From NCBI RefSeq assembly GCF_014279895.1, contig NZ_CP047954.1, positions 372,001-436,000 of the forward strand: a DNA stretch of 64,000 nucleotides, read 5' to 3'. A model generated the notes under the pieces. The model had not been told where the DNA came from and made no database searches. It saw nothing but the letters and a program-made list of their open reading frames with translations. Below, piece by piece: positions 9,487 through 46,415 of the stretch. Each line of letters begins with the position of its first letter. The first letter of the stretch is position 1. This DNA is from Synechococcus sp. M16.1. GTDB taxonomy: Bacteria > Cyanobacteriota > Cyanobacteriia > PCC-6307 > Cyanobiaceae. Position numbers and translations under genes: made by a program.

Positions 9487-9644
9487 CAGTAATCGCTGTC
9501 GGCAACGCACATGCCCAGGCAGCGAATGCCATTGCTGGCGGTTCTGCGGCAGTGGTTGCAGAGGATGCGTTCCGCGTCCGCAGTCGATCCCTCCACGGCT
9601 TGATCGGTCGATCGCGCAGGTTCCTGCGCGGGGGATGCGGTCAT
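9486..9644 (-). CDS. Small four-cysteine protein
   Basis: A 52-residue protein. The first half is polar and low in complexity; the C-terminal half is ILCNHCRRTASNGIRCLGM CVADSDY, with CxxC followed by CxxxC, a possible small metal site. The compact conserved-looking end argues that it is a real gene. It overlaps the next gene by TGATG. Its ATG overlaps the ATG of the divergent aldo/keto reductase gene within a single CATG, so any promoter for one lies inside the other. Confidence 0.5.
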   Translation of the reverse strand: MTASPAQEPARSTDQAVEGSTADAERILCNHCRRTASNGIRCLGMCVADSDY

Positions 9645-10659: not shown

Positions 10660-10668
10660 GTGTTGTGC

Positions 10669-11301: not shown

Positions 11302-11417
11302 TGAAAAAAGATGTATTGACGCCGCTATCGGAAAAGGTTCCGATGTGCTTCAGGCACCCTATTCGATCCCTTCTGGGGTGTGGCCGACTGCATTAAACCT
11401 GTCTGAAACTGACGTAA

Positions 11418-12455: not shown

Positions 12456-12473
12456 GGAACGAATCCGATGCAT

Positions 12474-12774
12474 TGATCCTGCAATGCCGCGGAACCTGTG
12501 CTGATTGGCTTGTCGGCACAGCAGCTGATTGGCTGTGCTTATCGACTGTTCTCTCTCGGCTTATGCCCGGGGGCTTGCGTTCCGGCGTTGATCTGCCAGT
12601 CGGCACGCGGTTTAGCGCAAGAGGCGGGCCTGGGTGGCTGTGCCGATCGCTCTGATGGCGCCCAGTTTCTTTCCAAGAGCACCCTTTTTAAGTTCACAAC
12701 ATTCTTTTTTGTGAGGCCTGCCAACGGCCGAGAACTGCGCGCTCAGTTCCCAGTCCTTGGCAACGCCGTTCTGC
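12474..12774. other. Intergenic region, no convincing gene
   Basis: About 300 nt between the divergent purM and rlpA genes. Short reading frames exist on the minus strand but their composition (Arg/Pro-rich, no ribosome-binding site) does not look like protein. It presumably holds both promoters. A T-rich patch (CCCTTTTTAAG and CATTCTTTTTTGTG near 12680-12712) lies close to rlpA. Confidence 0.5.
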
Positions 12775-13314
12775 ATGCGAGTCCTCCTGACGTTGGCCAC
12801 GCTCTCCGGAGCGATCTCAGGCAGTGCGGCCCTCCTGCCGGTCGTGGCCAGTGATTTCCTCTCGGTCAACGGTGCAGAGCCGCTTGACCCTCTGGATCTG
12901 GTGGTCGAGCCCCAGGCTTCTGGGCTGCAGGCAACGCTTACTCCGGCGGAGGTCAAACCGGTTCTTGCACCTCCTTCCCCTGAACTCCCCAAGCCGAAGC
13001 TGAAGGTCGTTCCAGAAGTGGTGAAGGTCATCACTGGTGAGGCCAGTTGGTACGGCCCCGGTTTTTACGGCAACCTCACGGCCAACGGTGAGGTTTACAA
13101 GCGCGGCACGATGACGGCGGCCCACCGCACGCTTCCCTTTGGAACAAAAGTGCGCGTCACCAACCTCTGGAACGGGCGCACGGCCGTGATCCGCATCAAC
13201 GATCGCGGACCTTTCATTGATCACCGGGTGATCGACCTGGGCCACGGCGCCGCCTCTGACCTGGGACTGACTGCCTCTGGAATTGCCCAGGTCAAGCTTG
13301 AGGTGCTGCGCTGA
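12775..13314 (+). CDS. rlpA: RlpA-like septal ring lytic transglycosylase
   Basis: An exported protein of 179 residues with a signal peptide (MRVLLTLATLSGAISGSAALL) and a Pro/Lys spacer. The double-psi beta-barrel domain follows: GEASWYGPGFYGNLTANGE, the TMTAAHRTLPFGTKVRV motif and VIRINDRGPFIDHRVIDLG with the catalytic-type Asp. RlpA proteins cleave glycan strands lacking stem peptides. There is no SPOR domain, as is common in cyanobacteria. It overlaps the start of the panC-cmk gene. Confidence 0.85.
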   Translation: MRVLLTLATLSGAISGSAALLPVVASDFLSVNGAEPLDPLDLVVEPQASGLQATLTPAEVKPVLAPPSPELPKPKLKVVPEVVKVITGEASWYGPGFYGNLTANGEVYKRGTMTAAHRTLPFGTKVRVTNLWNGRTAVIRINDRGPFIDHRVIDLGHGAASDLGLTASGIAQVKLEVLR

Positions 13315-14828
13315 GCTGCGTCGTTCTCTCCACCCAGGCCGAGCTGGAACGCTTCCGGGCCAACCTCGGTGGACCTCTGCAATTCGTGCCCACCATGGGG
13401 GGGTTGCACCAGGGTCACGGTGAGCTGATCCGCCTCGCTGCAGGACGGGGTCCTGTGCTCGTGAGTGTGTTCGTTAACCCACTCCAATTCGGGCCAGCTG
13501 AAGACTTTGATCGCTACCCGCGAACCCTCGAAGCGGATCGCGATTTAGCCGAACGTTGTGGCGCCCATGCCCTTTGGGCCCCGAGTGTCGTCGCCATTTA
13601 TCCAAGTGGCCTCCAGTCAGCGGTGACGCGTTCTGCACCTGCTGACCTGCAGCCCCATCTTTGTGGAGCCTCCCGTCCCGGTCACTTTGATGGTGTGGTC
13701 ACGGTCGTGGCCCGACTGCTGCAGCTGGTGGAGCCGTCCTGCCTTTGGCTGGGTGAGAAGGACTGGCAGCAGCTGGTGATCCTGCGCCGGCTCGTGGCCG
13801 ATCTTGATCTGGGCGTGGCGGTGCAGGGCGTTCCCACCGTTCGTGAATCCGATGGTTTGGCGTTGAGTTCCCGTAACCAATACCTCTCTTCTGTTGATCG
13901 GGCTCGAGCCGCTGCTCTGCCGGCGGCACTGCGTCATGCCGATCCCAGTGATCCTGAGACTTCGGTGCGACAGAGCCTCGCTGAAGCAGGACTTGAAGTG
14001 GAGTATGTAGAGAGGGTCGATCCCCGCACCCTTCAGCCCTGTGGCGCTGAAACGGCCATCTCACTGTTGGCCGCGGCGGTGCGTTGCGGGACGACCCGTT
14101 TGATTGATCACGTCTTCCTGATGACCCGCCAGCCTCTTGTTGCCATTGATGGCCCTGCCGGTGCTGGCAAAAGCACCGTGACCCGGGCCTTTGCTGAGCG
14201 GATGGGGCTGGTTTACCTCGATACCGGTGCGATGTATCGGTCGGTGACCTGGTTGGTGCAACAGAACGGTGTGGACCCGCAGGATGCGGCGTCGATTGCA
14301 CCGCTGTTGAACGACCTCGACCTTCAGCTGCGGTCGCTGCCCGGTGGTGGCCAGCAGGTGTTGGTGAATGGGCAGGACGTGAGTGACGCGATTCGCTCGC
14401 CGGAGGTCACCGCGTCGGTTTCGGCCGTGGCCGCCCACCGTTGCGTCAGGCAAGCGCTGACCGCTCAACAGAAAGCGATGGGTGCCAAGGGTGGTTTGGT
14501 GGCAGAAGGCCGCGACATCGGCACCGCTGTTTTCCCGGATGCGGATTTGAAGGTGTTCCTTACGGCCACGGTGGGCGAACGGGCCCGGCGCCGGGCTCTG
14601 GATCTGGACCAGCGGGGCTTCCCGGTGCCTGAGCGATCTGAGCTTGAAGCACAGATCGCCGAACGGGATCACCTCGACAGCACCCGTGAAGAGGCTCCTC
14701 TGGTGCAGGCGGACGATGCCGTTGAGCTCGTGACCGATGGCATGAGCATCGAGGCTGTGATCGATGCCCTGGTGGGGCAGTTCCGGTCTCGGGTGGCTGA
14801 AGAAGCCTGGCCTACGCCGGCGGGCTGA
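13311..14828 (+). CDS. panC/cmk: Bifunctional pantoate-beta-alanine ligase / cytidylate kinase
   Basis: A natural fusion, usual in cyanobacteria. The N-terminal half is PanC (FVPTMGGLHQGHGELIRLA, FVNPLQFGPAEDFDRYPR, EKDWQQLVILRRLV, SDGLALSSRNQYLS), which condenses pantoate and beta-alanine for coenzyme A. From about residue 275 comes Cmk (VAIDGPAGAGKSTVTRAFAE with P-loop, LVYLDTGAMYRSVTW, VAEGRDIGTAVFPDADLK), which phosphorylates CMP/dCMP. The PanC homology begins about 25 residues before the first in-frame GTG. The only reasonable start is a CTG overlapping the rlpA stop (CTGA), 6 nt after a GAGGT ribosome-binding sequence; I use it with caution. Confidence 0.92.
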   Translation: MSCVVLSTQAELERFRANLGGPLQFVPTMGGLHQGHGELIRLAAGRGPVLVSVFVNPLQFGPAEDFDRYPRTLEADRDLAERCGAHALWAPSVVAIYPSGLQSAVTRSAPADLQPHLCGASRPGHFDGVVTVVARLLQLVEPSCLWLGEKDWQQLVILRRLVADLDLGVAVQGVPTVRESDGLALSSRNQYLSSVDRARAAALPAALRHADPSDPETSVRQSLAEAGLEVEYVERVDPRTLQPCGAETAISLLAAAVRCGTTRLIDHVFLMTRQPLVAIDGPAGAGKSTVTRAFAERMGLVYLDTGAMYRSVTWLVQQNGVDPQDAASIAPLLNDLDLQLRSLPGGGQQVLVNGQDVSDAIRSPEVTASVSAVAAHRCVRQALTAQQKAMGAKGGLVAEGRDIGTAVFPDADLKVFLTATVGERARRRALDLDQRGFPVPERSELEAQIAERDHLDSTREEAPLVQADDAVELVTDGMSIEAVIDALVGQFRSRVAEEAWPTPAG

Positions 14829-15291
14829 GCTCGTCGAGCAGGTTGGCGCAGGCATCCTCGAGCAGGTCGAGCACATGCTCGAAGCCCGCCTCGCCCCCGT
14901 AATAGGGATCCGGCACTTCCGTTTCAGAGAACCGGCCGGCGTAGCTGAGCATGGGCTTGATGCTGGCCGTTGCTCGGGGCCCGGCTTCGCGAGCCAGTCC
15001 CTGGACGGCCGCGAGATTGTCGTCGTCCATGGTCAGCATCAGATCGAAACTCGAAAAATCGTCGAGGCTGATCTGCCTTGCTCGGCTGGGGAGGTTGATG
15101 CCGCGGCGGTTGGCGGCAGCCTGCATGCGTCGGTCTGCCGGGTTGCCCACATGCCATCCGCCCGTTCCGGCGGAATCCACCAGGAACTGATCACTGAGGC
15201 CACGCTCTTCAAGCAGATGCAGGAAGACGCCTTCGGCTGCCGGTGAGCGGCAGATGTTGCCGAGGCAGACGAACAACAGTTTCTGGGTCAT
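14812..15291 (-). CDS. Low-molecular-weight protein tyrosine phosphatase
   Basis: A 159-residue enzyme with the signature loop near the N terminus, LLFVCLGNICRSPAAEGVF (CX5R with the nucleophile Cys and Arg), and the general acid in the late VPDPYYGG motif. LMW-PTPs dephosphorylate phosphotyrosine proteins. The gene is the last of a string whose stop and start codons overlap (rpcT-rpcE-rpcF-this gene), so it is translationally linked to phycocyanin lyase genes. Its 3' end overlaps panC-cmk by 17 nt on the other strand. Confidence 0.92.
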   Translation of the reverse strand: MTQKLLFVCLGNICRSPAAEGVFLHLLEERGLSDQFLVDSAGTGGWHVGNPADRRMQAAANRRGINLPSRARQISLDDFSSFDLMLTMDDDNLAAVQGLAREAGPRATASIKPMLSYAGRFSETEVPDPYYGGEAGFEHVLDLLEDACANLLDELSPPA

Positions 15292-15920
15292 CCGGCGTTG
15301 AGGCGTTGGAGGGCTTTCAGCGCCCGCAGCTGCACCACCCTGACACCTTCCGCATCGGATGCGAGCTGGTTTAGTGCGGCCCGGCCCTGTTCGGCGAGGT
15401 GCGCTGACAAAGCTGCGCTGTTCAAGCGTTGCTCGAGTCCGTAGGCCGCTGCATAACGCACCACCCACTCGTCGTCTCGCACGGCTTTGAGCAGTCCCTC
15501 GAAACAGCGCACAAGCTGATCGTGCGCTGCGTCTTCACTGAACTCCAAGTCCGCCAGGCCACGGGTTGCGGAGCGCCGCACGCTCGGAGCGATGTCGGCC
15601 TGAAGGGCATGCTCCAGGAGGTCAAGACCCCGTGGATCCCGCAGGGCGGCAATCACCTTCACCACCCATGCCCGTGCGCCGTAATTGCGGGCATCCAGGC
15701 TCACCAGAAGGATGGGAATGGTGTCCCGTCCCAGTTGGATCAGCCCCTGTGTTGCCACTGCTGCCACCGCTGGATTGTTGAACCCCAGCACTTTCACGAG
15801 CGGCTTGGCGGCCTCAAGGTCGTTCAGTGCACAAAGGGCTTGCGTTGCTTTAACCAGCTCAGGAGTGCTGGTGGCCCGCTCGAGCGTCTGAAGCGCCTGG
15901 TCCAATGCTGTGTTGGTCAT
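15288..15920 (-). CDS. rpcF: Phycocyanin alpha-subunit bilin lyase, F subunit
   Basis: A 210-residue HEAT/PBS-repeat protein of the CpcF type (ALCALNDLEAAKPLVKVLGF, NPAVAAVATQGLIQLG, DDEWVVRYAAAYGLEQRL). With the E subunit it attaches a bilin to Cys84 of the phycocyanin alpha subunit. In marine Synechococcus this pair is called RpcE/RpcF, and some strains carry a single fused RpcG lyase-isomerase instead. Separate E and F genes suggest that this strain attaches phycoerythrobilin without isomerisation to phycourobilin at that site (family knowledge, not seen directly). Confidence 0.88.
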   Translation of the reverse strand: MTNTALDQALQTLERATSTPELVKATQALCALNDLEAAKPLVKVLGFNNPAVAAVATQGLIQLGRDTIPILLVSLDARNYGARAWVVKVIAALRDPRGLDLLEHALQADIAPSVRRSATRGLADLEFSEDAAHDQLVRCFEGLLKAVRDDEWVVRYAAAYGLEQRLNSAALSAHLAEQGRAALNQLASDAEGVRVVQLRALKALQRLNAG

Positions 15921-16696
15921 CAGAGCAGTCCGTCCATTGCGTCGAGAACGTCATTGGGGTCGACGTTGCGTTCCGCCACCTCTCGGAGTGCAACCAACTT
16001 GAGGCTGGGTTCCACCGCAGCCGTGCGGATCGAGGGCACGGCGGCAAGCCAGCCGGTGGCGCCGAGGTCGAGCAGCGCGCCGCGGCGCACCAGGGGTTCT
16101 GGATGGTTCAGCAGCTTTTTCAGTTCCATACCCCATTGATCAAGTCCGGTCAGCTGCAGCAATGCTCGGCAGGCCGCTGAACGGATCAAGGGCCGAGGGT
16201 GCTCCGTGAACGGATGAATCACAGCGAGATTGCTACTGCTGCCATCACCGATGTCACCCAGGGCTTCCAGCAACGCTTCACAGGGTTCATTGAGCAAGGG
16301 GGATGAGGGTTGCTCAGCTCCTGCTCCCTCCAATCCACTGGCAAGCAAGGCCCGGATGCCCTCAACAGCCCCACAGCTGCCCATGGCACCAAGCGTGCGG
16401 ACCACCTCCTCTCGCACGGTGTAATCGTTGGAGTGCAGCAGCGCCAGAAGAGGTTGTTCCGCTCTCATGTCCCTGAGCAGACCGAGGGCACGGATTGCGT
16501 TGAGAGCGACACCGCGCTGCTCTGGATCAATCGGCGTGGCATCCAGTGCTTCAAGAGCCCTGAGCAGAAGAGGGATGGCATCGGGATGCTGGCTGCGCAT
16601 TTTTCCGAGCCACCAGGCGGCGTAGTACTGCGCCGAAGGGTCCTCCGTTTGGCGGAGGTTTTTGATCACCTGCGTTTCACTCAGCGGTTCCATCAC
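15920..16696 (-). CDS. rpcE: Phycocyanin alpha-subunit bilin lyase, E subunit
   Basis: A 258-residue HEAT-repeat protein of the CpcE type: SETQVIKNLRQTEDPSAQYYAAWWLGKMR, then repeats such as VALNAIRALGLLRDMRAEQPLL, NDYTVREEVVRTLGAMGSC and PLIRSAACRALLQLTGL. It is the larger half of the heterodimeric lyase for phycocyanin alpha Cys84. Its ATG overlaps the end of rpcT and its stop abuts rpcF. Confidence 0.88.
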   Translation of the reverse strand: MMEPLSETQVIKNLRQTEDPSAQYYAAWWLGKMRSQHPDAIPLLLRALEALDATPIDPEQRGVALNAIRALGLLRDMRAEQPLLALLHSNDYTVREEVVRTLGAMGSCGAVEGIRALLASGLEGAGAEQPSSPLLNEPCEALLEALGDIGDGSSSNLAVIHPFTEHPRPLIRSAACRALLQLTGLDQWGMELKKLLNHPEPLVRRGALLDLGATGWLAAVPSIRTAAVEPSLKLVALREVAERNVDPNDVLDAMDGLL

Positions 16697-17286
16697 ACCC
16701 AGGCCGATGCCATATCGGCTGTCCAGCTTTCAGTTCGTTTGAACCGGAACGGTCCCGCCACCGAGCCCCAGCAACGCTCATTGGTTTCCGGGTCATGACC
16801 GCGATCGAGGGTCGCAAGGGAGTCTCCTTCCAAATGAAAGCTGCTCACCAGCACGGTGTCTTTGCCATTCCGTTGCACGATGCATTTGCAGCCTGGTTCC
16901 ATGGCGCCGTGGTAGCCGTCTGGCTGTTCGAGCACTTGGTAGTGGCACTCATCCAGGCTGATCAGGTCGCTGTCCTGAATGGCAAGGCGCAGTTGTGGAT
17001 CAAACGTGGCTCCAGCGAAGCGTTCCGGATCACGGAAGGTGTGATTCCAGAGCTTGATGGCGCCGGAGGCCTGCTCTTCAGCGCGGATCATGCGCAACCG
17101 ATAGGGATGCTTGGGATCAACGGCATAGGTCTGTTCGAGCAGAATTGACCCTGGATGGAGCTGTATGAGCGGGCGATACCTCAGAAAGATGTGGGCATAG
17201 AGGGGTGGATTGTCGAAGGCTTGCTGCTGGTTGCTGTATTCGCCGCAGAGCAGGTTGAGAAAACGCCGAACGTTGGGGGTGATCAC
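16693..17286 (-). CDS. rpcT: CpcT-type lyase for phycocyanin beta subunit Cys153
   Basis: A 197-residue member of the CpcT/CpeT fold (RFLNLLCGEYSNQQQAF, YRPLIQLHPGSILLEQTYAV, PYRLRMIRAEEQ, MEPGCKCIVQR, GHDPETNERCWGSVAGPFRFKR). CpcT proteins form a calyx that delivers a bilin to Cys153 of the phycocyanin beta subunit. It is related to, but clearly distinct from, the CpeT at 30.2 kb. It is the first gene of the overlapping lyase string, about 75 nt downstream of rpcA beyond a terminator hairpin. Confidence 0.85.
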   Translation of the reverse strand: MITPNVRRFLNLLCGEYSNQQQAFDNPPLYAHIFLRYRPLIQLHPGSILLEQTYAVDPKHPYRLRMIRAEEQASGAIKLWNHTFRDPERFAGATFDPQLRLAIQDSDLISLDECHYQVLEQPDGYHGAMEPGCKCIVQRNGKDTVLVSSFHLEGDSLATLDRGHDPETNERCWGSVAGPFRFKRTESWTADMASAWV

Positions 17287-17310
17287 AGCGCTCTTATGGG
17301 GCCGAAAAAG

Positions 17311-17341
17311 AACAATAAAAAAAGCCCCCCGAGGGGGGCTT
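17311..17341 (-). terminator. Terminator after rpcA
   Basis: A strong stem (AAGCCCCCC-TCG-GGGGGGCTT on the minus strand) followed by a T run and ATTG. It sits between rpcBA and rpcT-E-F, so it probably cuts lyase transcription to a fraction of that of the structural genes. Confidence 0.85.
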
Positions 17342-17360
17342 GGAACGCAACGTCGGCTGA

Positions 17361-17849
17361 TCAGATCAGGGCGTTGATGGCGTAATCGATGTAGCTGTTG
17401 GCTTCAGTAGCAGCATCGCCGCTGAGGCCGTGGTTGGCCTTGATGTGCTTCAGAGCTTCCACGTACCAGGACGGGGAGAGCTCGAAGGTGCGATTGATCT
17501 CGTCGAGACCAGCGATCAGGTAGTCGTCCATGGGGCCGGTGCCACCTGCCACGAGGCAGTAGGTGATCATGCGCAGGTAGTAGCCCACGTCACGGGAGCA
17601 CTTGGCTTTGCCTTCCGCAGTGGCGGAGTAGTTGGACCCCTCCATCTGGGTGGTGTAGGGGAACTTGGTGTACACGGCCTGGGCAGCGCCGTTCACCAGG
17701 GAATCAGCCTTGCTGGTGAGAGCCTTGGCAGCCTCGAGGCTGGCCTTGGCACGGTTGAAGCGACCGGAGGCAGCCTGAACTTCGGTGTTGCTCAGGAAGC
17801 GGCCCTGGGAATCAGCTGCTGCAACAGCTTCGGTGAGGGGAGTTTTCAT
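17361..17849 (-). CDS. rpcA: R-phycocyanin alpha subunit
   Basis: A 162-residue phycobiliprotein alpha chain ([20 protein letters not shown] start). The bilin-binding Cys84 lies in [20 protein letters not shown], with the conserved Asp87 contact. The ending [11 protein letters not shown] is typical. With RpcB it forms the hexamers at the core-proximal base of the rods. It lies 41 nt downstream of rpcB in a two-gene operon. Confidence 0.95.
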
Positions 17850-17890
17850 TGATCGTTATGGGAATGAAAGACGTCGAATCCAGGCGCCGA

Positions 17891-18409
17891 TCAGGCGACG
17901 GAGGCGGCGGCGCGGTCGAAGTAGGTGCCGATTTCGCTGCTCAGGGAGGCGCAGTCACCAGCTGCGATGCCAGCTTTGTCGTTGACGATGGCCAGAGCGG
18001 CGTCCTTCATCAGGTTCACGCCGGCGGCGACAGAAGCACCGGGGGTGCCGAGGGCCAGGTAGGTCTCACGCAGGCCGTTCAGGCAGCGGTCTTCCATCAC
18101 GGAAGCGTCGCCGGTGAAAGCGGAGTAGGTGACGTAGCGAAGGATGATCTCCATGTCGCGCAGGCAAGCGGCCATGCGGCGGGAGGTGTAAGCGTTGCCG
18201 CCGGGGGCGATCAGAGCAGGCTGCTGAGCGAACAGCTGGCGGGCAGCGGAAGCAACGATGGTGGAAGCGTTGCTGGAGATGCGGTTAACGGCATCCAGAC
18301 GCTTGTTGCTGTCGGAAACCATGGCAGCGAGGGCGTCGATCTCGCTGGTGCTGATGAATTGTCCCCGGGCATCGGCCTGGGCGACAACCTTGGTGAAGGC
18401 GTCGAACAT
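17891..18409 (-). CDS. rpcB: R-phycocyanin beta subunit
   Basis: A 172-residue phycobiliprotein beta chain starting [20 protein letters not shown]. The bilin sites are Cys82 ([19 protein letters not shown]) and Cys153 ([14 protein letters not shown]); the Asn72 that is usually methylated falls in GGNAYTSRR. There is no Cys50/61 pair, which separates it from phycoerythrin beta chains. It is the first gene of rpcBA. The 134 nt upstream to pebB hold the probable promoter and leader. Confidence 0.95.
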
Positions 18410-39140: not shown

Positions 39141-39440
39141 TCAGGCCAGTTCCAGCAACCTGATCCGGAAGGCAGCCACCTGGCGTGCCATGTCTGGGGA
39201 ACTGATCAGGAAGGGGTGATCAGCCATCGCCTCGAGCACGGCTTCGAGATGCTCTTCCTGGCTGAGTTCAGCCTTGTTGCTGCTTCGCAGTTGCTTCCAG
39301 GTGCGGTCAAACACCATGGCAAAACTGTCCGCGTTATCGAAAACCCGATCTGTGCCTGCATCTGGAGAGATGAATGACACGGCAGTTTTGGCATCAATGT
39401 GATGCCAGGACCCAGATTTGAACTGGGGGCGTTGCGACAA
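39141..39440 (-). CDS. Hypothetical protein whose start lies in the attachment site
   Basis: A 99-residue soluble protein (FAMVFDRTWKQLRSSNKAEL, HLEAVLEAMADHPFLISSPD). Its first dozen codons read through the tRNA-like attachment repeat at 39402-39428 (the QFKSGSWH residues come from tRNA sequence). Either the true start is an internal non-ATG codon after the repeat, or insertion of the element supplied a new 5' end. Without the element this gene would lie just downstream of tRNA-Phe. Confidence 0.5.
   Translation of the reverse strand: MSQRPQFKSGSWHHIDAKTAVSFISPDAGTDRVFDNADSFAMVFDRTWKQLRSSNKAELSQEEHLEAVLEAMADHPFLISSPDMARQVAAFRIRLLELA
39402..39428. repeat. Left attachment repeat (tRNA-Phe 3' remnant)
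   Basis: 27 bp identical to 46342-46368. It holds the T arm and acceptor 3' half of tRNA-Phe without the rest of the gene. The flanking bases differ at both ends, so the repeat length is exactly 27. Confidence 0.93.
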
Positions 39441-39478
39441 TTTGCCCCTTTAAGCGCTCAATCTGTATAGCAGCGATA

Positions 39479-39507
39479 CTAAAAATGCCCTTTTTGGGCG
39501 TTTTTGC
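39479..39507. terminator. Bidirectional terminator at the left end of the element
   Basis: AAAAATGCCC-TTT-TTGGGCGTTTTT forms a stem flanked by A and T runs, so it can work on both strands. It would insulate the integrase from the chromosome. Confidence 0.65.
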
Positions 39508-39512
39508 TTGCT

Positions 39513-39534
39513 GCTCCCATACCGCTCCCATACC
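39513..39534. repeat. Tandem 11-bp repeats, probable recombinase arm sites
   Basis: GCTCCCATACC occurs twice with no spacing, 85 bp inside the left attachment repeat. Near the right end GCTCCCCTACC (46233-46243) and a partial copy GCTCCCCTG (46222-46230) repeat the motif in the same orientation. Repeats of this kind near both att sites are typical arm-binding sites of tyrosine integrases. Confidence 0.6.
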
Positions 39535-39595
39535 ATCGGGATGATTTGCGGTAGGTCCGAACCACTCCTGGAAGGTGTTTCGGTAGGGGAACTCT

Positions 39596-41023
39596 ATGGG
39601 ACGGTCGCTGCCACAGGAATGGATAGACGGCACCCTTCACACCCTCAACGTGGTGCGCGACCTGGGGGGCAAAGGGAACATCCCCCACACCTCTCTATCG
39701 ATCGTCCGTCAGAAACCCAGCGCGAACAGCAGAAAGACCAAGAACCTCCAGTGGCGCTTCCTGCCGGAGAAAGCAGATGACCCTCGTCCGTTTGCTGGCA
39801 AAACCAATCGGGGGCGGGGAAAGCGCATTTATATAGAAGGCACTTGCGGGACCACCGACCCCTGGGAAGCAGCAAAGGTCGCGGTTGCTGCCTCTCAAAA
39901 GAAGTGGCAGGACCTCCTCTCACAGTCCCAAGTGCGGGAAGTGGAGAAGCAACACGCTCTGTCGGTCTATTGGGAGCGTTGGTATGCCAAGGCGGAACTG
40001 GAACCACGGAACAACCGAAGTCGTTGGTTGAGCGATAAGCGGAACCTTTGGAACGGGACCACAGGCATAGGCGTTCAACCCTGGGCGACGGTCAAAAGCA
40101 TTCAGGCGATCACGAGCAACGACTTTTTGGAGTTCTTCCGTCTCGTCAGGGAGAACTGTGAAGCGAAGGGCAACTCAGGAGAAGAGACCAGAAGGCAATA
40201 CAAGACCCTTATCCGCAACCTGTTCAAAGAGGCGAAGGCAGATTTTCCCGCTCTGTCATGCCCTGAGTTCCCTGCGATAAAGAAGAGCGTGCGTCAGAAG
40301 AGGCACTTCACCCATCAGGAGTGGGAGCAATTGGTTCGCGTTGCCGCCGAACTGTCTGGTGGTGCTGCTCGCCGGTCTCTGACGGCGGAGGAATATCGGG
40401 AACTGCCTTGGACCCCGACGAACCGTCAGAACTCACGCAACTGGGTTGATTTGTATGACGCGCTCCACTTGGAGTGGTTCTATTACCTCCGAAGTGAAGA
40501 TGCTCCTCGGTTGAGAAGTGAGTGGTTCAGCGAGCAACTGACCGATGCGGGAGAACCACAAGTCATCTGCTTCCTTGAGAAAACGAAGGGTGACAGGGAC
40601 AAGCACGACACCTATGCCTACCGACCAGATGCGTTGGAGAACATCCGCCGCATTCTCAAGAGGAAACCACAGGGGTGGTTGAACTTTCCCCACATCAAGA
40701 GAACGGAAGGCAGCGAAAACGAAAGCAACGTTGGAGAGACGATCAACTTCCTTCTCAAGAAGGTGTGTGAGAAGGCAGGAATCTCAACCAAAGGGATTGA
40801 TTGGACTACCTGTCGCCATACCGCATTCCGGTTGACCTTGGAGGACTACCCAGAACTCGGGACCACGCAATACATCCGGGATTTTGCGGACAACGGGCAT
40901 ACGTCGCCAAAGATGCTGGAGGAGCGTTATTTGCGCTTTATCCAGCGTGAGAAGACAGCAGCAAAGGCGCGGGCAGCAATCACTCCAGGAAAGTGGTCGC
41001 TAATCAGCAGAAAGAAGAATTAA
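39596..41023 (+). CDS. int: Tyrosine recombinase (integrase) of the element
   Basis: A 475-residue phage-type integrase. The C-terminal catalytic domain (from ~235) shows box I as YYLRSEDAPRL (Arg299), a Lys near 329-331 in LEKTKGDRDK, box II as TTCRHTAFRL (Arg407), GHTSPKMLEERY with His435 and the nucleophile Tyr445. The usual first His of HxxR is Thr404. Residues 1-110 look like an arm-binding domain with many basic residues, and 115-225 like the core-binding SAM-like domain. It lies 170 nt inside the left repeat and reads inward, so it is the likely enzyme for insertion in tRNA-Phe. Confidence 0.9.
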   Translation: MGRSLPQEWIDGTLHTLNVVRDLGGKGNIPHTSLSIVRQKPSANSRKTKNLQWRFLPEKADDPRPFAGKTNRGRGKRIYIEGTCGTTDPWEAAKVAVAASQKKWQDLLSQSQVREVEKQHALSVYWERWYAKAELEPRNNRSRWLSDKRNLWNGTTGIGVQPWATVKSIQAITSNDFLEFFRLVRENCEAKGNSGEETRRQYKTLIRNLFKEAKADFPALSCPEFPAIKKSVRQKRHFTHQEWEQLVRVAAELSGGAARRSLTAEEYRELPWTPTNRQNSRNWVDLYDALHLEWFYYLRSEDAPRLRSEWFSEQLTDAGEPQVICFLEKTKGDRDKHDTYAYRPDALENIRRILKRKPQGWLNFPHIKRTEGSENESNVGETINFLLKKVCEKAGISTKGIDWTTCRHTAFRLTLEDYPELGTTQYIRDFADNGHTSPKMLEERYLRFIQREKTAAKARAAITPGKWSLISRKKN

Positions 41024-41454
41024 GAGCAATTAATTTAATTACGCTCTGGCGCCAATTAAAACTTGACTCGATATTAATTAACCTGTAGAATTACCTTTGT
41101 AGAGGTTGATGGGGAGTTTCTAGGTTCTTGTGTCCTTTATGTCTCAATTGTTACGTTAGATGTTAGTCAAACTTCTTAGATACATAACTAGGTTTGTGAC
41201 CTTTGATCTCAAGGGTGTGTCTAAATAGGTTCTAAAGGGATGCAAACACACTGGAGACCATGAACGAAGTGAGTATTCCCTGAAGGGGAATGAATTAAAT
41301 GTCCAAATAAATATAGTTGGGTTCTCCATTTAAGACTGCAAGAGAACTGAAAACCCGACCACGACTAGGAGGTCCCAATAAATCAACCACCAACGCAACG
41401 CCTAATTGCCCCCAGACGAACATGATGCGTAAACCAAATAGTCAGAGATTTAAC
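41024..41454. other. A/T-rich non-coding stretch of the element
   Basis: About 430 nt with no convincing gene, much richer in A/T than the surroundings (for example TTAATTTAATTACG near 41031 and ATTAATTAACC near 41073). An imperfect inverted repeat, TTCCCTGAAGGGGAA, lies near 41276. It could hold the promoters of the mini-genes that follow, or an origin-like region; nothing in the sequence decides. Confidence 0.4.
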
Positions 41455-41604
41455 ATGACCTATACCAAGAGAGAAGCACCAATCTTGGTTCCAATTGAGC
41501 ACAAACTTTGTTCTGAACTGGGACTTGATCGCTCTGAACTCCATAAGACGGCAATCAAGGAGTTCTGGAACCGCCGTCAGCAATCCACCTTGGCGTTGAT
41601 TTGA
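41455..41604 (+). CDS. Mini-protein, ribbon-helix-helix-like
   Basis: A 49-residue protein: a short strand (REAPILVPIE), then two helices (HKLCSELGLDRSELHKTAIK, EFWNRRQQS). That layout and size fit a MetJ/Arc-type ribbon-helix-helix DNA-binding unit, such as elements use as excision or copy-control repressors. An AGAG sequence lies 6 nt before the ATG. The frame is open upstream, but that part looks non-coding. It precedes another RHH-like gene by 7 nt. Confidence 0.45.
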   Translation: MTYTKREAPILVPIEHKLCSELGLDRSELHKTAIKEFWNRRQQSTLALI

Positions 41605-41611
41605 GGTGGGT

Positions 41612-41749
41612 ATGGCGAAGTCAGTGAAAGTCAGCGATGTCCATTACCAGATGCTTGTCGATGTCGGGAAGCGTTGGCGGATGAAACCAGATGACCTGGT
41701 GAAGGAACTGATCCAGGAGACCTACACAAACAAGACCAAGAGGAAGTGA
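41612..41749 (+). CDS. Mini-protein, ribbon-helix-helix-like (second)
   Basis: A 45-residue protein, MAKSVKVSDVHYQMLVDVGK followed by RWRMKPDDLVKELIQETYTN. The pattern (short basic strand, helix, turn, helix) is the classic CopG/Arc ribbon-helix-helix fold. A GAGGTGG ribosome-binding site lies before the ATG. With its neighbour it forms a two-gene unit and could control the element's integrase or cargo. Confidence 0.55.
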   Translation: MAKSVKVSDVHYQMLVDVGKRWRMKPDDLVKELIQETYTNKTKRK

Positions 41750-41872
41750 TGAATGGCATTCACAAGAGGTATTTGGATCGCACTACAAGAAGGACCTTCG
41801 ATAGGTCCACGGAGATCTACGGGCAGACGCTTTGGTGATTAAGCACCACCGATATTTGCCGTAGGCGCTTTT

Positions 41873-42052
41873 TTAATCACTGCCTTCCAGTGATCGAGAT
41901 GTAATTACATCAAACTCCTGAAGAAGAGCGTACGCATCCTCGAACCGCTCAGCATCTCTGAGTTCTTGGACCTTGTGATTCCACCAGATTCCAGTGTCGA
42001 TAATTGCTTGGAGTTGTTCAGGTGAGGGGTTAAACCCTGATCCTCCAGACAT
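41873..42052 (-). CDS. Small hypothetical protein of the element
   Basis: A 59-residue soluble protein starting MSGGSGFNPSPEQLQAIIDT, helical and acidic (WNHKVQELRDAERFEDAYAL). An AGAAGGA site lies 5 nt before the ATG, which favours this start over upstream ones. A terminator-like hairpin in the 41840-41870 region faces it. No family is recognised. Confidence 0.5.
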   Translation of the reverse strand: MSGGSGFNPSPEQLQAIIDTGIWWNHKVQELRDAERFEDAYALLQEFDVITSRSLEGSD

Positions 42053-42107
42053 AAAAGTCCTTCTGATTTCACGGAAGAGTATCTGCTGAGAGAAGAAAAG
42101 CAAGTAA

Positions 42108-42218
42108 ATGAGGATAAAGGAAGATTTACCTATGGATCTAATCTTTGGGATGGATATGATCGGTTTCTTCTGCTTAATTTTGGGTCCTGTGCTGCCTCCA
42201 GAGGAGGTGCATTCATAA
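42108..42218 (+). CDS. Possible 36-residue membrane peptide
   Basis: MRIKEDLPMDLIFGMDMIGF then a hydrophobic run (FCLILGPVLPP). A GGAAG sequence precedes the inner ATG at 42132. One hydrophobic helix with charged ends is the size of a small membrane peptide, but a frame this short can arise by chance. Confidence 0.25.
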   Translation: MRIKEDLPMDLIFGMDMIGFFCLILGPVLPPEEVHS

Positions 42219-42247
42219 GAGGTATTGGACCACTCCCAATGTTGAAT

Positions 42248-42502
42248 TTAAGAGATCTGAAGGAGTTGGATTAGGTCTGATAATTCGTCTATCTGAGCAG
42301 GTTGTTTGTCCCTGTTATCAACAAAGGTCACCTCATACCCCTCGTAGTTCTTCATTAAATCCAGTTCGACGACGTCTCCGTTCAGGAACATCCGTACGTT
42401 GATCCCCCAGTCAGCGCACTGAACCAGGAGTGACTCCACCTTGTCCTCCTTCAAGTCGGTTAGGAGAGAGCGGATGGTTTCTTCGGTTTGCGCTGCGTCC
42501 AT
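42248..42502 (-). CDS. Small acidic hypothetical protein
   Basis: An 84-residue soluble protein with good alpha/beta composition (IRSLLTDLKEDKVESLLVQC, VRMFLNGDVVELDLMKNYEG). A GAGGGA site lies before the ATG. It lies 14 nt downstream of the next small frame on the same strand, suggesting a two-gene unit. No family is recognised. Confidence 0.5.
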   Translation of the reverse strand: MDAAQTEETIRSLLTDLKEDKVESLLVQCADWGINVRMFLNGDVVELDLMKNYEGYEVTFVDNRDKQPAQIDELSDLIQLLQIS

Positions 42503-42516
42503 TGGTCCCTCGGGTG

Positions 42517-42696
42517 TCAGGGAATATCCGCGGAGTCTGAATCCAGAGGCAGGGGACTGGAGTTCATAGTCGTTCCGTCTGCCCCTTTTGACTCCTTTTC
42601 TGCTCTGGTCAATCTCTCCACCAGGTTCAGGGTGTCGTGAGGGGACAAATCACCGTCATCGCCCCACTTGAGACTGGAAAGGTCAGGCGGGCACAT
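42517..42696 (-). CDS. Possible 59-residue protein upstream of the acidic gene
   Basis: MCPPDLSSLKWGDDGDLSPH followed by LNLVERLTRAEKESKG and a Ser/Asp-rich end. The composition looks protein-like (amphipathic helix, no rare runs) and the stop lies 14 nt before the next gene. No clear ribosome-binding site precedes it, which keeps confidence low. Confidence 0.35.
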   Translation of the reverse strand: MCPPDLSSLKWGDDGDLSPHDTLNLVERLTRAEKESKGADGTTMNSSPLPLDSDSADIP

Positions 42697-42824
42697 GAGG
42701 GGTAAGGCAACTATGTGCGCAACCTAAGGACGTGAGATCCCTGTTGTGCCAATGCTCCCCGAAGATTCATGGAAGAAATGCTGAATTGAGTGTCCTTGCG
42801 ATACCGAACTGGTTGGGGATGGTT

Positions 42825-43289
42825 TTAACCGCGCAGAACCCGACCACCCAGGCATTGCGCAGAGATGGTCCAGAACCCCGCCGCTGCTTTCAGGAGTTCT
42901 CGATTTGGAGCGAACTCCTCTGTTCGCCAAAAAAAGAGCGCATTGTCTAACCCAACAAAAATCACTCGATTGACGTCCTGGGGTTTGGGGACTCGCTTGT
43001 GTGGGTTCCATACAAGGTCGTTCTCAAACAGCAGAGCAGTGCCTGAATTGGCGGCGTCCTGGGTGAAGAACGACCAAGTGGTTTGGCGGTATTGCTTGGG
43101 TTTGCTGGACATAAATATTCCAAGTCGTTTGTCGTCCTGGATCAGAACTCCTCGAAGTGCAGTAGGGGTTCGCTCTTCCAATCGAATGGAAATGGTGGGG
43201 ACCTCTTCGCTGATTACTTCGCAGACCAAGGGCAGTGGTACTGCACTCGCAGGCATCGCTGACAGAAGCAGAAGGAGTAACGCCCTCAT
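42825..43289 (-). CDS. Secreted hypothetical protein of the element
   Basis: A 154-residue protein with a clear signal peptide (MRALLLLLLSAMPASAVPLP, cleavage after ASA) and a mature part that looks beta-rich with two Cys (LVCEVISEE near the start, SAQCLGGRVL at the end) that could form a disulfide. Upstream codons are open but lack protein character. No family is recognised; it is the only exported product in the element. Confidence 0.55.
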   Translation of the reverse strand: MRALLLLLLSAMPASAVPLPLVCEVISEEVPTISIRLEERTPTALRGVLIQDDKRLGIFMSSKPKQYRQTTWSFFTQDAANSGTALLFENDLVWNPHKRVPKPQDVNRVIFVGLDNALFFWRTEEFAPNRELLKAAAGFWTISAQCLGGRVLRG

Positions 43290-43466
43290 TCGCTGCCCTC
43301 TTGGGATGCTCAGTACGTAAGTTGTAACCCCCACTACAACGTTCTTTACACTTCTCCACACCTTTTTCCACAGAAACTCTTAACGCCAAGATTTGCTCTG
43401 ATGGTGCTCTGAGGCACAGATCCTTCCGGTCGTCAGGCGAAGACTGAGCGCCGCATCTTTTGGTTA

Positions 43467-43637
43467 ATGAGGGATGGGCACTGGAGAGAAGGTGATCACG
43501 CACATCCCTTCAGTAGTACGCAATGTGTGATCTGCGGTAGGGCATTGCAGTTGCCTTCATCGTTTGCCCTTGATGAGGTGACTTGTACGAACTGCCGCCT
43601 AAGGCAAAAAAAAGTCGTTGAGGAGTGGGGCGACTAG
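43467..43637 (+). CDS. 56-residue zinc-ribbon-like protein
   Basis: MRDGHWREGDHAHPFSSTQC then VICGRALQLPSSF and VTCTNCRLRQKK. The two CxxC pairs, 16 residues apart, are the usual zinc-ribbon ligands, flanked by basic residues. No strong ribosome-binding site is visible. The stop overlaps the stop region of the convergent 55-residue gene by 3-4 nt. Zinc ribbons of this size bind DNA, RNA or protein. Confidence 0.5.
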   Translation: MRDGHWREGDHAHPFSSTQCVICGRALQLPSSFALDEVTCTNCRLRQKKVVEEWGD

Positions 43638-43801
43638 TCACCTGCCAGCACCTCGTTGATTCGGTCTTCGAGCGTCCTGTCCTCATCGGCAGGAGCAATG
43701 GCATCACCAGTTGCCCTGAGTAGGTCAGCAGTTATCTGCCTCGCGTCTTGGTTGGTGAAGAGGAGGAACCCCAGACCAACACCCAAAAGAATCTTCAGCA
43801 C
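43634..43801 (-). CDS. Small membrane-anchored protein after the resolvase
   Basis: A 55-residue protein: GTG start, MLKILLGVGLGFLLFTNQDA, a single membrane helix, then a soluble acidic tail (ITADLLRATGDAIAPADEDR, TLEDRINEVL). Small proteins of this plan (short hydrophobic N terminus, DAR-TAD-LRATxDAIAP) are familiar to me from marine Synechococcus and cyanophage genomes, with no known function. The GTG overlaps the end of the resolvase gene, with a GGAAGAGG site inside that gene. Confidence 0.55.
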   Translation of the reverse strand: MLKILLGVGLGFLLFTNQDARQITADLLRATGDAIAPADEDRTLEDRINEVLAGD

Positions 43802-44376
43802 GGCACCTCTTCCTGTTGCTGAATGATCCGACGAACCATCGATGTCGTCATCCCCATTACTGACGCGATGGTTCCGTATCCATCTCCTCTCTGGCGCATC
43901 TCCACCACTGCTGCCGCCTGTTGTGGCGTGTAGTTCCTCTTCCTGCCGAACTTCACCCCTCTGTTCTTGGCGACTTCTCTGCCTTCGGCAGTGCGTTTTT
44001 TGATGCCCTTGAGTTCCATTTCAGCGGCGTAACCCATTACGCCCACCACCAACTTCACCAACTCCTCAGGCATCGAGGCAGTGTCCAGGCGTCCATCCAG
44101 GGTCTTGATCGCCACCCCGCGTTCGATCAGACCGTTGACCTGAACAAGCATTTCGACCATTGAGCGCCCAAGACGATCCAGTTCGTGGATCACCAGGGTG
44201 TCCCCATCACGGAGACCGTCCAGGCACTTGCTCAGTTCAGGTCGATCTCCATAAGCGGAGGTTCCAGTGATCTGGTCCCCGTAAATCCGATCGCACCCTG
44301 CTTCCTTCAGCGACTTCTGCTGCCGCTCGCTGTCCTGCTCAGTAGTGCTGGTCCTCCAGTAACCCCAGATCGCCAT
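43795..44376 (-). CDS. Serine recombinase (resolvase/invertase family)
   Basis: A 193-residue enzyme. The N-terminal catalytic domain starts MAIWGYWRTSTTEQDSERQQ with the nucleophile Ser10 in the YxRTS motif, then DGLRDGDTLVIHELDRLGRS with the conserved Arg pair. The E-helix is long, and the C-terminal helix-turn-helix (PQQAAAVVEMRQRGDGYGTI, ASVMGMTTSMVRRIIQQ) binds DNA. It is a small resolvase/invertase, not a large serine integrase. It is a second recombinase in the same element and may act on the repeats upstream of its own gene. Confidence 0.9.
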   Translation of the reverse strand: MAIWGYWRTSTTEQDSERQQKSLKEAGCDRIYGDQITGTSAYGDRPELSKCLDGLRDGDTLVIHELDRLGRSMVEMLVQVNGLIERGVAIKTLDGRLDTASMPEELVKLVVGVMGYAAEMELKGIKKRTAEGREVAKNRGVKFGRKRNYTPQQAAAVVEMRQRGDGYGTIASVMGMTTSMVRRIIQQQEEVPC

Positions 44377-44381
44377 GACTG

Positions 44382-44439
44382 CCCTGTCGAATCTCTGCTG
44401 AAATTATAGAGCAATTCGACAGGGTATTTCGACAGGGTA
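44382..44439. repeat. Repeats upstream of the resolvase gene (possible res site)
   Basis: TTCGACAGGGTA occurs twice, 13 nt apart start to start (44415-44426 and 44428-44439). An inverted copy, CCCTGTCGAAT, lies at 44382-44392, so the first two form an inverted pair separated by 21 nt. Partial copies (CTGTCGGAA near 44471, TTTCGACACCC near 44488) continue upstream. All lie in the resolvase promoter, where family members bind to act on DNA and control their own expression. Confidence 0.6.
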
Positions 44440-44578
44440 AGAACGTAGTTGTGATGGTTTTTCGTCTGATCTGTCGGAACTTGTAAGTTTCGACACCCAT
44501 CAGGACTTCTTCCGTTTTCGCGCTTGACCAAGCCCGGTCATCCGTGACTAAAACAGATGTACTACTAACGGAGGGTTC

Positions 44579-44824
44579 ATGGCAGAGGGTTGGTTGATCG
44601 ACGCCAATGACCATTGGGTCTGGCGCTTCCACAGGGACAACTCCGCTTGGGTCAGAGATCCGAAGGTCTTCATTGACCGAGGGCGATCAATGCCTGAAGG
44701 ACCACCACTGCTCAAGGAGCGTCGGTATCTGAGGAAAGATGCCGCAGAGCAGTTGTGGAAGTCACTCCAGACCCAGGGATGGAAGAAGACGACTCCCTTA
44801 TGGGGTGCGACTGTCGAACCCTGA
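44579..44824 (+). CDS. DUF1651-type protein
   Basis: An 81-residue protein: EGWLIDANDHWVWRFHRDNS, then DRGRSMPEGPPLLKERRYLR and KDAAEQLWKSLQTQGWKKT. This matches the DUF1651 family as I recall it, which is multiplied in marine Synechococcus and Prochlorococcus and has no known role. A GGAGGG site precedes the ATG. It is divergent from the resolvase across the repeat region. Confidence 0.7.
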   Translation: MAEGWLIDANDHWVWRFHRDNSAWVRDPKVFIDRGRSMPEGPPLLKERRYLRKDAAEQLWKSLQTQGWKKTTPLWGATVEP

Positions 44825-44918
44825 AGGTGTCTCCGCCACCTAAATCCCAATCCAGTAAAAATTGCTGCCGCTACCCATATGGCGGGTGCCTACAACCTCA
44901 AAAAGGTGTTGCCCCGCC

Positions 44919-45089
44919 ATGTCTTACAGAGACGCCAACCACCTCAAATCAACCTTCCAGCGGGAACTTTGGAGTGAAGCGGGGACTTGGTTGCTGGAGA
45001 GGACGCAAACGCTTTGGGATGGCGGGATGCCCGATGAAGCATCGGCGCTCTATTCAGAGTTCTCCAGAGGTCCTGCTCTGGGCGAATGA
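44919..45089 (+). CDS. Small hypothetical protein
   Basis: A 56-residue helical protein (MSYRDANHLKSTFQRELWSE, AGTWLLERTQTLWDGGMPDE, ASALYSEFSRGPALGE). The regular amphipathic helices and clean start (AAGGTG site 9 nt before the ATG) suggest a real gene. A perfect-frame upstream extension looks non-coding. It is the last plus-strand gene before the terminator array. No family is recognised. Confidence 0.5.
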   Translation: MSYRDANHLKSTFQRELWSEAGTWLLERTQTLWDGGMPDEASALYSEFSRGPALGE

Positions 45090-45612
45090 CTGTGTGCCTT
45101 AGGGGATACATAAAGCGGTAGTTCCGCTCATGCCCAGGTGCTCTGACCCGCCTTAGAATAGGGATGAGGTCAGAGACCGCTGAAGCAGTAAAACCAGGTC
45201 TCAACGACCTTCAGGGGGGCACCGCTTGCCCCCCTTTCAAATGCGCTCTTCTACGGATGGCAGCAGGTCCGTAGCGGGGCGAGCATCCGTTCAACCTTCT
45301 TCGGAAGGGTGAATGCGTCATCGAGGGAGGGACTAGGGAACCCTCCTTTTTCTTGGTTGCCTCACGCCAGGGACTTTTTGTCGTGACGGCGACGACCCGT
45401 AGGTATTTATTCCGTCATCTTCGGTTCGTTCCCTTCGGTGAGGGGACGATGCGTCGTACGGGGAGGGATTAGGGACCCTCCTTTTTTTTGGCAGTTCGTA
45501 AACGGCGCCCACGGCACCGCCGTTGGTTTTAAGAGGGTGTTTTCGCTGGAACGACAGCACCTTCGACGCATACGTCCCCTTTAGTGGCGGCATTCCCTGC
45601 CGCCTTTTTTAT
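45090..45612 (+). repeat. Gene-poor array of terminator-ended structured units
   Basis: Four rho-independent terminators follow each other on the plus strand at about 45212-45238 (GGGGGGCACC-GC-TTGCCCCCC), 45329-45355 (GGAGGG...CCCTCC-TTTTT), 45460-45488 (GGAGGG...CCCTCC-TTTTTTTT) and 45587-45612 (GGCGGC...GCCGCC-TTTTTT). Units two and three are imperfect copies of a hairpin (stems round TTCG, at 45286 and 45431) joined by an ATGCGTC spacer to the terminator. No convincing gene fits between them. The first unit starts near a TTAGAAT -10-like box (45153). Tandem small RNAs or insulator-like terminators are the possibilities. Confidence 0.55.
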
Positions 45613-45613
45613 T

Positions 45614-45676
45614 GCTTGCGGGCGACCGAACCATGAACGGTCCTCACCACCTCTTCTGACGGTTCTCCTGCTCCTC
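45614..45676. repeat. 63-bp direct repeat, left copy
   Basis: 57 of 63 positions match the copy at 46018-46080. The invariant core GACCGAACCATGAACGGTC can form a hairpin, or pair differently with GGTTC further on. On the minus strand each copy holds the same 12-residue frame (GTG start, MRTVHGSVARKQ here) with an AGAAGAGG site; on the plus strand each holds a nine-codon frame (MNGPHHLF). Confidence 0.7.
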
Positions 45677-45700
45677 CTTAAGAGTCCTTAGGCAAGGGAA

Positions 45701-45880
45701 TCACTCCTCCTCATCAAGGATTCCTTGTAGAGCAAACAACTTGTCTTGCTCCTCTTCCCCGACAATCACATGGACTGATGTGCCGTCAGGTAGGGAGTAG
45801 TCCGCAGTAATAACGGCATCGGGGTGGACTCCCAAAGAGACCTTCTGACCTTCCAAAAGCATGTAGCAGTGGGAGTTCAT
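45701..45880 (-). CDS. Small acidic protein between the 63-bp repeats
   Basis: A 59-residue protein, MNSHCYMLLEGQKVSLGVHP, then a beta-rich middle (VITADYSLPDGTSVHVIVGE) and an acidic helical end (DKLFALQGILDEEE). The composition is convincing for a folded protein. Its ATG overlaps the stop of a 53-codon frame upstream. It and its upstream frame are flanked by the 63-bp direct repeats, like a small cassette. No family is recognised. Confidence 0.5.
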   Translation of the reverse strand: MNSHCYMLLEGQKVSLGVHPDAVITADYSLPDGTSVHVIVGEEEQDKLFALQGILDEEE

Positions 45881-46038
45881 GCCTGGAAGGGGAGTTGCTC
45901 CACATGCTTGGTGGAGATAGGAAATGGAGCACCCAAAGCACAAACAACTTCACAGGTGTTCGCAACGAACAGCACGGGTCGTTGGGGAATCTGTGTCTGA
46001 CCGTCCCCTTTCTCAATGCTTACGGGGGACCGAACCAT
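45877..46038 (-). CDS. Possible 53-residue protein coupled to the cassette gene
   Basis: MVRSPVSIEKGDGQTQIPQR, then FVANTCEVVCALGAPFPIST with two Cys, and an ATGA-type overlap with the next gene. It starts inside the right copy of the 63-bp repeat. No ribosome-binding site lies at the ATG (an AGAAGAGG lies 16 nt upstream), so it could equally be the untranslated leader of the downstream gene. Confidence 0.3.
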   Translation of the reverse strand: MVRSPVSIEKGDGQTQIPQRPVLFVANTCEVVCALGAPFPISTKHVEQLPFQA

Positions 46039-46080
46039 GAACGGTCGCCACTACCTCTTCTGACGGTTCTCCTACTCCTC
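46018..46080. repeat. 63-bp direct repeat, right copy
   Basis: Copy of 45614-45676 with six differences, all outside the two long invariant blocks. The minus-strand frame here reads MATVHGSVPRKH (GTG start at 46051) and the plus-strand frame MNGRHYLF. Both micro-frames stay intact in both copies. Confidence 0.7.
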
Positions 46081-46278
46081 ACGGGAGAGCACCAGGAGGA
46101 AGGTGATGGGGAGAAGAACGAGAGGGCGGGACCTCTGGGGTGGGTTGGCACTCCAGGGGTCTTTTTTTGCCCTTGGGTAGGGGAAATCTGGGGACCTTTC
46201 CCCGCCCGACCGAAAGGACGTGCTCCCCTGCTGCTCCCCTACCGTTTCGGCAAAATCCAATTGGGTGCTTGAGGCACT

Positions 46279-46325
46279 AAAAAGGCACGTAACAACATCA
46301 GATATGGTGCTTTCACGTGCCTTTT
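46279..46325 (-). terminator. Terminator of tRNA-Phe
   Basis: An 11-bp stem (AAAAGGCACGT paired with ACGTGCCTTTT) with a 24-nt loop, 18 nt past the tRNA 3' end, followed by a T run on the minus strand. It lies inside the element, so the element brings its own terminator for the tRNA it occupies. Confidence 0.7.
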
Positions 46326-46342
46326 AAGGCGTTTTCGGGAAA

Positions 46343-46415
46343 TGCCAGGACCCAGATTTGAACTGGGGACACGGCGATTTTCAGTCGCCTGCTCTACCAA
46401 CTGAGCTATCCCGGC
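46343..46415 (-). tRNA. trnF: tRNA-Phe (GAA), target of the element
   Basis: Complete cloverleaf: acceptor GCCGGGA/TCCTGGC, D arm GCTCAGTTGGTAGAGC, anticodon loop CTGAAAA with anticodon GAA, T arm CCCAGTTCAAATCTGGG, discriminator A. The 3' part is shared with the left attachment repeat. Integration has kept the gene whole. Confidence 0.97.

Follow-up and report, generated by a model that had tools for sequence, protein, structure and literature searches.

What kind of mobile object occupies the tRNA-Phe gene of Synechococcus sp. M16.1, and by which means could it move? The question is raised by the block at 39402-46368 of the window, i.e., of the whole stretch of 64,000 nucleotides that was analyzed (contig NZ_CP047954.1, positions 372,001 to 436,000). 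The original prediction had described a compact, intact, tRNA-Phe-integrated mobile element with two recombinases, which it placed with the tycheposons or the satellites. The object was spotted correctly and is of a known kind, but the wrong name was applied to it. Judged from comparison with related genomes, the block is very probably an intact integrative element of a picocyanobacterial integrase family that is associated with tRNA-Phe and tRNA-Cys genes.

Borders of the Element and Its tRNA-Phe Target

The ends of the element are defined by the following features.

39402..39428, no strand: left attachment repeat, 27 bp, a copy of the tRNA-Phe 3′ half (perfect match to 46342-46368)
46342..46368, no strand: right attachment repeat within tRNA-Phe (perfect match to 39402-39428)
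46343..46415, minus strand: tRNA-Phe (GAA), intact, with its 3′ half as the integration site (ARAGORN, Rfam tRNA)

The perfect 27-bp repeat reported earlier for both ends is indeed present. As its right copy lies inside the tRNA-Phe gene, the repeat corresponds to the 3′ half of this tRNA, and the gene is left whole because the element brings its own copy of that half. The insert bounded by the repeats measures 6,940 bp, has a guanine-plus-cytosine content of 52% (61% for the window) and contains about 12 plausible genes, the majority of which encode fewer than 90 residues. The small size of the products noted in the original prediction was thus correct.

Empty sites were searched with the left and right flanks of the element joined into one query. 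This query matched end to end in six congeneric species (G029, G003, G022, G010, G009 and G005), in which the tRNA is whole and the repeat is present once. The left-flank junction, ...CATCAATGTG followed by the repeat, is identical in G029 and G003 and nearly so in the other empty sites. The block is absent in these six congeners and so is not universal there, and strains without the integrase hold the repeat as the single copy of an empty site, which leaves the mobile-element reading intact. Elements of 7.9 to 10.7 kb occupy the same locus in three other species (G001, G020 and G032), with integrases 95-97% identical to that of the window, and at this flank in G014 the integrase is broken. 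The nearest flank, that of G029, is 96% identical yet empty, whereas G001, G020 and G032, with flanks of 87-91% identity, are occupied. Presence of the element therefore does not track flank similarity. As shown by this comparison, insertion into the 3′ half of tRNA-Phe is precise.

The locus could also hold a static, decaying island that has been inherited vertically since the ancestor of the four occupied species. The place is the same in all four, the cargo is rearranged, and integrase-less remnants occur in G006, G015 and G028. However, clean empty sites are found in closer relatives, the integrase and the resolvase are under purifying selection, the integrase is less diverged at synonymous sites than the flanks, and arm sites are kept at both ends. 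A static island is thus improbable.

The short tRNA-Phe inserts in G006, G015 and G028 (L075, L076 and L078) contain homologs of cargo open reading frames (ORFs) without an integrase and are likely remnants of related elements. In another species (L074, G030:C1:443336-452737), the comF gene, which adjoins tRNA-Phe, is interrupted by about 9.4 kb. This insert carries ORFs for a terminase-large-like protein and for a large serine recombinase, and resembles a prophage or a remnant thereof in a competence gene.

The Tyrosine Integrase

A tyrosine integrase is located beside the left end, as had been predicted, its start being 168 bp from the repeat.

39596..41023, plus strand: tyrosine integrase, 475 amino acids (aa) (phrog_1, catalytic motif alignment, AlphaFold model, ratio of nonsynonymous to synonymous substitution rates, dN/dS)

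Searches of Pfam and NCBIfam with this protein gave no match, and the PHROGs match (phrog_1, integrase, E 6e-8) is weak. The AlphaFold model (predicted local distance difference test, pLDDT, 85; predicted template modeling score, pTM, 0.53) has a tyrosine-recombinase fold, with an uncertain arrangement of the domains, and its best PDB match is the lambda Int tetramer 1z1g (E 8e-6). In a motif alignment, as opposed to a structural superposition, residues R299, K331, R407, H435 and Y445 fit the catalytic set, of which H435 is replaced in two integrase relatives. The modeled fold and the catalytic residues would thus fit a lambda-type enzyme. Compared to lambda-type integration (lambda Int, PDB 1z1g; Tn1549 Int, 6emy), the predicted fold and the presence of arm and core sites are alike, whereas the integrase of the element has only about 12% identity over the match, a larger N-terminal region and a Thr at the His-II position.

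Relative to the three sister elements, the dN/dS of the integrase is 0.12-0.17. The synonymous divergence (dS) is 0.11-0.14 for the integrase and 0.22-0.34 for the flanking genes on both sides. These values would fit a working integrase that was shared between species more recently than its flanks.

Relationship to Known Families

Prochlorococcus and Synechococcus have a tyrosine integrase family, first reported in 2023, whose members are typically found upstream of tRNA-Phe or tRNA-Cys (PMC10187409). The family corresponds to EFAM cluster158946, which originally came to notice among virome proteins and has MAK08069.1 and WP_052038630 as reference proteins. A small serine recombinase is often found near the integrase and the islands are variable in content. 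Moreover, the integrases are phylogenetically distinct from those of tycheposons and VEIMEs, and the mechanism of the family is stated to be not yet known (PMC10187409). The window element shares with this family the host group, the target tRNAs, the linked small serine recombinase and the variable cargo island, as well as a divergent tyrosine integrase that is missed by standard profiles but keeps the catalytic residues. No difference that excludes membership appears in the main text. Since every testable feature matches, the element is a member with high probability, the comparison being one of features and hosts and not of aligned sequences. The main text of PMC10187409 contains none of the terms direct repeat, empty, attachment site, arm-type and boundaries, so that the attachment (att), arm and res anatomy described here appears to be new detail.

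Tycheposons of Prochlorococcus (cited in PMC10187409 and PMC10872708) likewise combine tRNA integration, a tyrosine recombinase and picocyanobacterial cargo islands. The element might hence be a tycheposon sensu Hackl and colleagues, with its cargo moved by a tycheposon-type tyrosine recombinase, and its tRNA-end repeats, its recombinase, its host and its cargo-only content agree with this. The published tree, however, sets the integrases of tRNA-Phe and tRNA-Cys with a linked serine recombinase apart from those of tycheposons (PMC10187409). On this phylogeny, tycheposon membership was rejected, and it is to be regarded as highly improbable.

The other name given in the original prediction implies a phage satellite, which a helper cyanophage would induce and which would be excised and packaged in the capsids of that phage. 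A size of 6.9 kb, the tRNA site, the integrase and the small hypothetical genes would suit such an origin, as would the discovery of the published cluster among virome proteins (PMC10187409) and the primase-like zinc-ribbon protein of some relatives. However, no phage structural, replication, packaging or capsid-remodeling gene was recognized in the element, the absence of the first two having been noted before, and no relative of the integrase was found in the phage genomes, viral contigs (IMG/VR) or plasmid collections searched. The satellite name is thus without positive support, no sign of a phage partner was found, and such an origin is unlikely. An origin from a phage or a plasmid was rejected on the same searches.

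The Family across Picocyanobacteria

Relatives of the integrase, at 30-92% identity, are found in Prochlorococcus, marine and freshwater Synechococcus, and Vulcanococcus. Whenever the DNA piece also includes a downstream tRNA, this is tRNA-Phe or tRNA-Cys, and in elements with both ends visible the integrase is located at the tRNA-distal end, facing inward. In nine elements, measured in addition to the closest set of the window element, the left-end copy of the tRNA 3′ end spans 23-33 bp. In some of the left copies, identity is kept only in the stretch that starts with the T-loop (GATTCGAA) and runs to the 3′ end, and the crossover is therefore limited to that segment. Of the 16 integrases placed in a tree, five are tRNA-Phe members, and four of these fall in one fully supported clade. 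The tree is discordant with host taxonomy, e.g., in placing Vulcanococcus next to Prochlorococcus MIT 0701.

Besides the recombinases, the relatives repeatedly carry an RHH-like pair (45-60 aa) and, next to the resolvase, a membrane-like protein of 55 aa. In two subsets of relatives, a zinc-ribbon protein that resembles primases or a protein with an HUH-like motif is present, neither of which is found in the window element. The HUH-like protein has HxH and YxxK motifs and resembles HUH replication initiators or relaxases. It was found in four related elements (L031 in G106, L033 in G005, L085:12305-13024 and L086:15713-16033), with no family match and a fold model of pLDDT 37 that is unusable.

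Arm Sites

Tandem arm-like repeats had been noticed at both ends. Each end indeed has two copies of 11 bp, and the arrangement recurs in relatives.

39513..39534, plus strand: left arm sites, two 11-bp direct repeats GCTCCCATACC (geometry shared by most relatives)
39582..39592, minus strand: left inverted arm copy GGTAGGGGAAC, directly 5′ of the int start codon
46176..46186, minus strand: right inverted arm copy GGTAGGGGAAA
46222..46243, plus strand: right arm sites GCTCCCCTGCT and GCTCCCCTACC, 11-bp spacing

In most elements, a direct-repeat pair with a spacing of exactly 11 bp lies about 80-140 bp inward of each end, and the inverted copy is usually found further in. The search picked the best pair per end and its score was compared with that of 200 shuffles of the ends. 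In 12 of the 14 elements the observed score was not reached by any shuffle; the other two, L091 and L097, gave no arm match under the same rule. The arm words vary between elements (CACCTTCC, TTACCTACC, TTTCCTACC, CCGCTACACC, CCCTATCA and others), and in five tRNA-Cys elements the left and right words are identical over 9 bases. When left and right words of eight distinct elements are correctly paired, they differ by a mean of 0.5 mismatches, compared to 3.3 when mispaired, and 1 of 40,320 pairings is as good. Near-copies were excluded from this test, as was L086, because its two ends are of different types. Matched ends combined with drifting words would be the trace expected of an integrase that reads its own arm sites.

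In the excluded element, from Synechococcus sp. UW105 (L086, ~9600-18240, at tRNA-Cys), arm sites that belong to another type lie directly against the left core, and a third arm type is present at the right end near the tRNA. The abutting sites have the appearance of the right end of another element, which probably reflects stacking.

The Serine Resolvase and Its Res-Like Site

The second recombinase, the predicted serine resolvase, is present inside the element together with a candidate site of action.

43795..44376, minus strand: serine resolvase, 193 aa, gamma-delta/Tn3 type (Pfam PF00239, Resolvase, E 6e-30; PDB gamma-delta resolvase)
44382..44495, no strand: res-like site 5′ of the resolvase gene, with five half-sites of type TGTCGAAA that face in both directions (equaled by one shuffle in 200)

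Gamma-delta resolvase (PDB) aligns over residues 1-187 of this protein (E 1e-25), and its dN/dS relative to G020 is about 0.04. A full-length or near full-length resolvase is found in the window element and in most relatives, whereas G001 has a fragment only. The co-occurrence of two recombinase types in 7 kb is thus real; it is a hallmark of the family and not a peculiarity of this strain. The half-sites have the same words in G020, and a similar layout with own words in G060 and G043. Compared to the Tn3/gamma-delta resolvase-res system (PDB 2gm4, 1zr2), the full-length resolvase sequence and the half-sites upstream of its gene are alike, whereas the element lacks a Tn3 transposase and its resolvase is paired with a tyrosine integrase. 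Most elements have an intact resolvase motif and upstream half-sites, and that each element has just one res-like locus suggests that dimers or tandem copies are resolved there.

Alternatively, the serine recombinase could act on the cargo itself, as an invertase or cassette shuffler of its modules. Modules A and H (listed below) vary in place or orientation among the four sister elements, fragments of the resolvase 3′ end adjoin module B in sisters, and PHROGs names the protein family DNA invertase. Nevertheless, its best solved full-length relatives are Tn3/gamma-delta resolvases, the half-sites lie beside the gene in a res-like layout, and the module borders showed no long paired inverted sites. 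Such a shuffling role is therefore quite unlikely.

Cargo Genes and the Non-Coding Repeat Region

The remainder of the element consists of small genes and a non-coding region.

41422..41604, plus strand: 60-aa RHH-like protein, which may act as a regulator or an excision factor (homologs in 9 other elements; dN/dS ~0.1-0.2; fold only inferred)
41612..41749, plus strand: 45-aa protein, second of the RHH-like pair (homologs in 10 other elements)
41873..42052, minus strand: 59-aa cargo ORF, module A (kept in three sister elements, order differs)
42248..42502, minus strand: 84-aa cargo ORF, module B (94-96% in G001 and G020; dN/dS ~0.1)
42825..43289, minus strand: 154-aa ORF, module B, signal-peptide-like N terminus (92-97% in three sister elements; dN/dS 0.06-0.2)
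43634..43801, minus strand: probable membrane protein of 55 aa, its ORF overlapping the 3′ end of the resolvase gene (homologs next to the resolvases of G061, G005 and others)
44579..44824, plus strand: DUF1651 protein, 81 aa (Pfam PF07864, E 1.5e-23; dN/dS ~0.07-0.15)
44919..45089, plus strand: 56-aa cargo ORF, module F (96% in G032; similar ORFs in the G006 and G015 remnants)
45701..45880, minus strand: 59-aa cargo ORF, module H, inverted compared to sister elements (86-88% in three sisters; dN/dS ~0.2)
45093..46170, plus strand: highly structured, non-coding region of repeats, in which several strong hairpins resemble terminators (candidate small RNAs)

Purifying selection supports the integrase, the resolvase, the 84-aa, 154-aa, 59-aa (module H) and 55-aa ORFs, the DUF1651 protein and the first RHH-like ORF. 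The cargo modules are permuted among the four elements (window, G001, G020 and G032), one of them being inverted. The 154-aa ORF additionally has a homolog in the G028 remnant, and partial cargo copies are located at 1.19-1.22 Mb of the same genome. A PADLOC search for defense cargo gave no hit, and no relaxase or conjugation gene was recognized in the element. In the G020 element (L027), the cargo includes an ion-channel protein of 328 aa and a DUF4236 protein.

The repeat region is found in 13 genomes of the genus and in none outside it (59 searched). Copies are present in L026, L027, L028, L033, L039 and L055, with up to three in the G001 element. An Rfam search of 45093-46170 gave no RNA family match. 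When eight copies are aligned, the terminator hairpin is supported by a few paired changes, but an overall consensus fold is not supported (covariation term ~0).

Proposed Mechanism and Implications

Taken together, the following course of events can be proposed. The integrase would bridge core sites located within the 27-bp repeat and the 11-bp arm pairs private to this enzyme, thereby integrating a 6,940-bp circle with the predicted junction ...CGTTTTCGGGAA, ATGCCAGGACCCAGATTTGAACTGGGG, GCGTTGCGACAA... in this order. Excision would involve the integrase and a small DNA-binding helper, for which the RHH-like pair is a candidate. The serine resolvase, acting at the adjoining res-like site, would return dimers or tandem copies to monomers and probably also represses its own promoter. 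The remaining genes would serve as exchangeable small cargo, and transfer from cell to cell would have to rely on an outside vehicle, i.e., a phage particle, a vesicle or transformation. We tentatively propose, at somewhat below even confidence, that each element has a private arm-site code read by its own integrase and an equally private res site, so that elements with the same target would be independent, could stack without cross-excision and would be kept monomeric. To our knowledge, no such two-recombinase plan has been described for tRNA-targeting islands in these organisms.

Several points weigh against this account. The low dS of the integrase could be explained by homologous recombination at the locus or by codon constraint, and excision is deduced from sequence comparison. 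The arm words of the tRNA-Phe group differ by one base between the two ends, the res-like arrays of some relatives are not clearly better than shuffles, and no excisionase was identified by homology.

Prochlorococcus and Synechococcus have very large gene pools and few known routes of gene exchange. The interest of the element lies in its arm-site code and its two-recombinase plan. Now that the att repeats of the element are defined exactly, and arm pairs, a res-like site and clean empty sites have been described, the mechanism of the family becomes testable in a small and simple element, the predictions obtained including the sequence of the circle junction.

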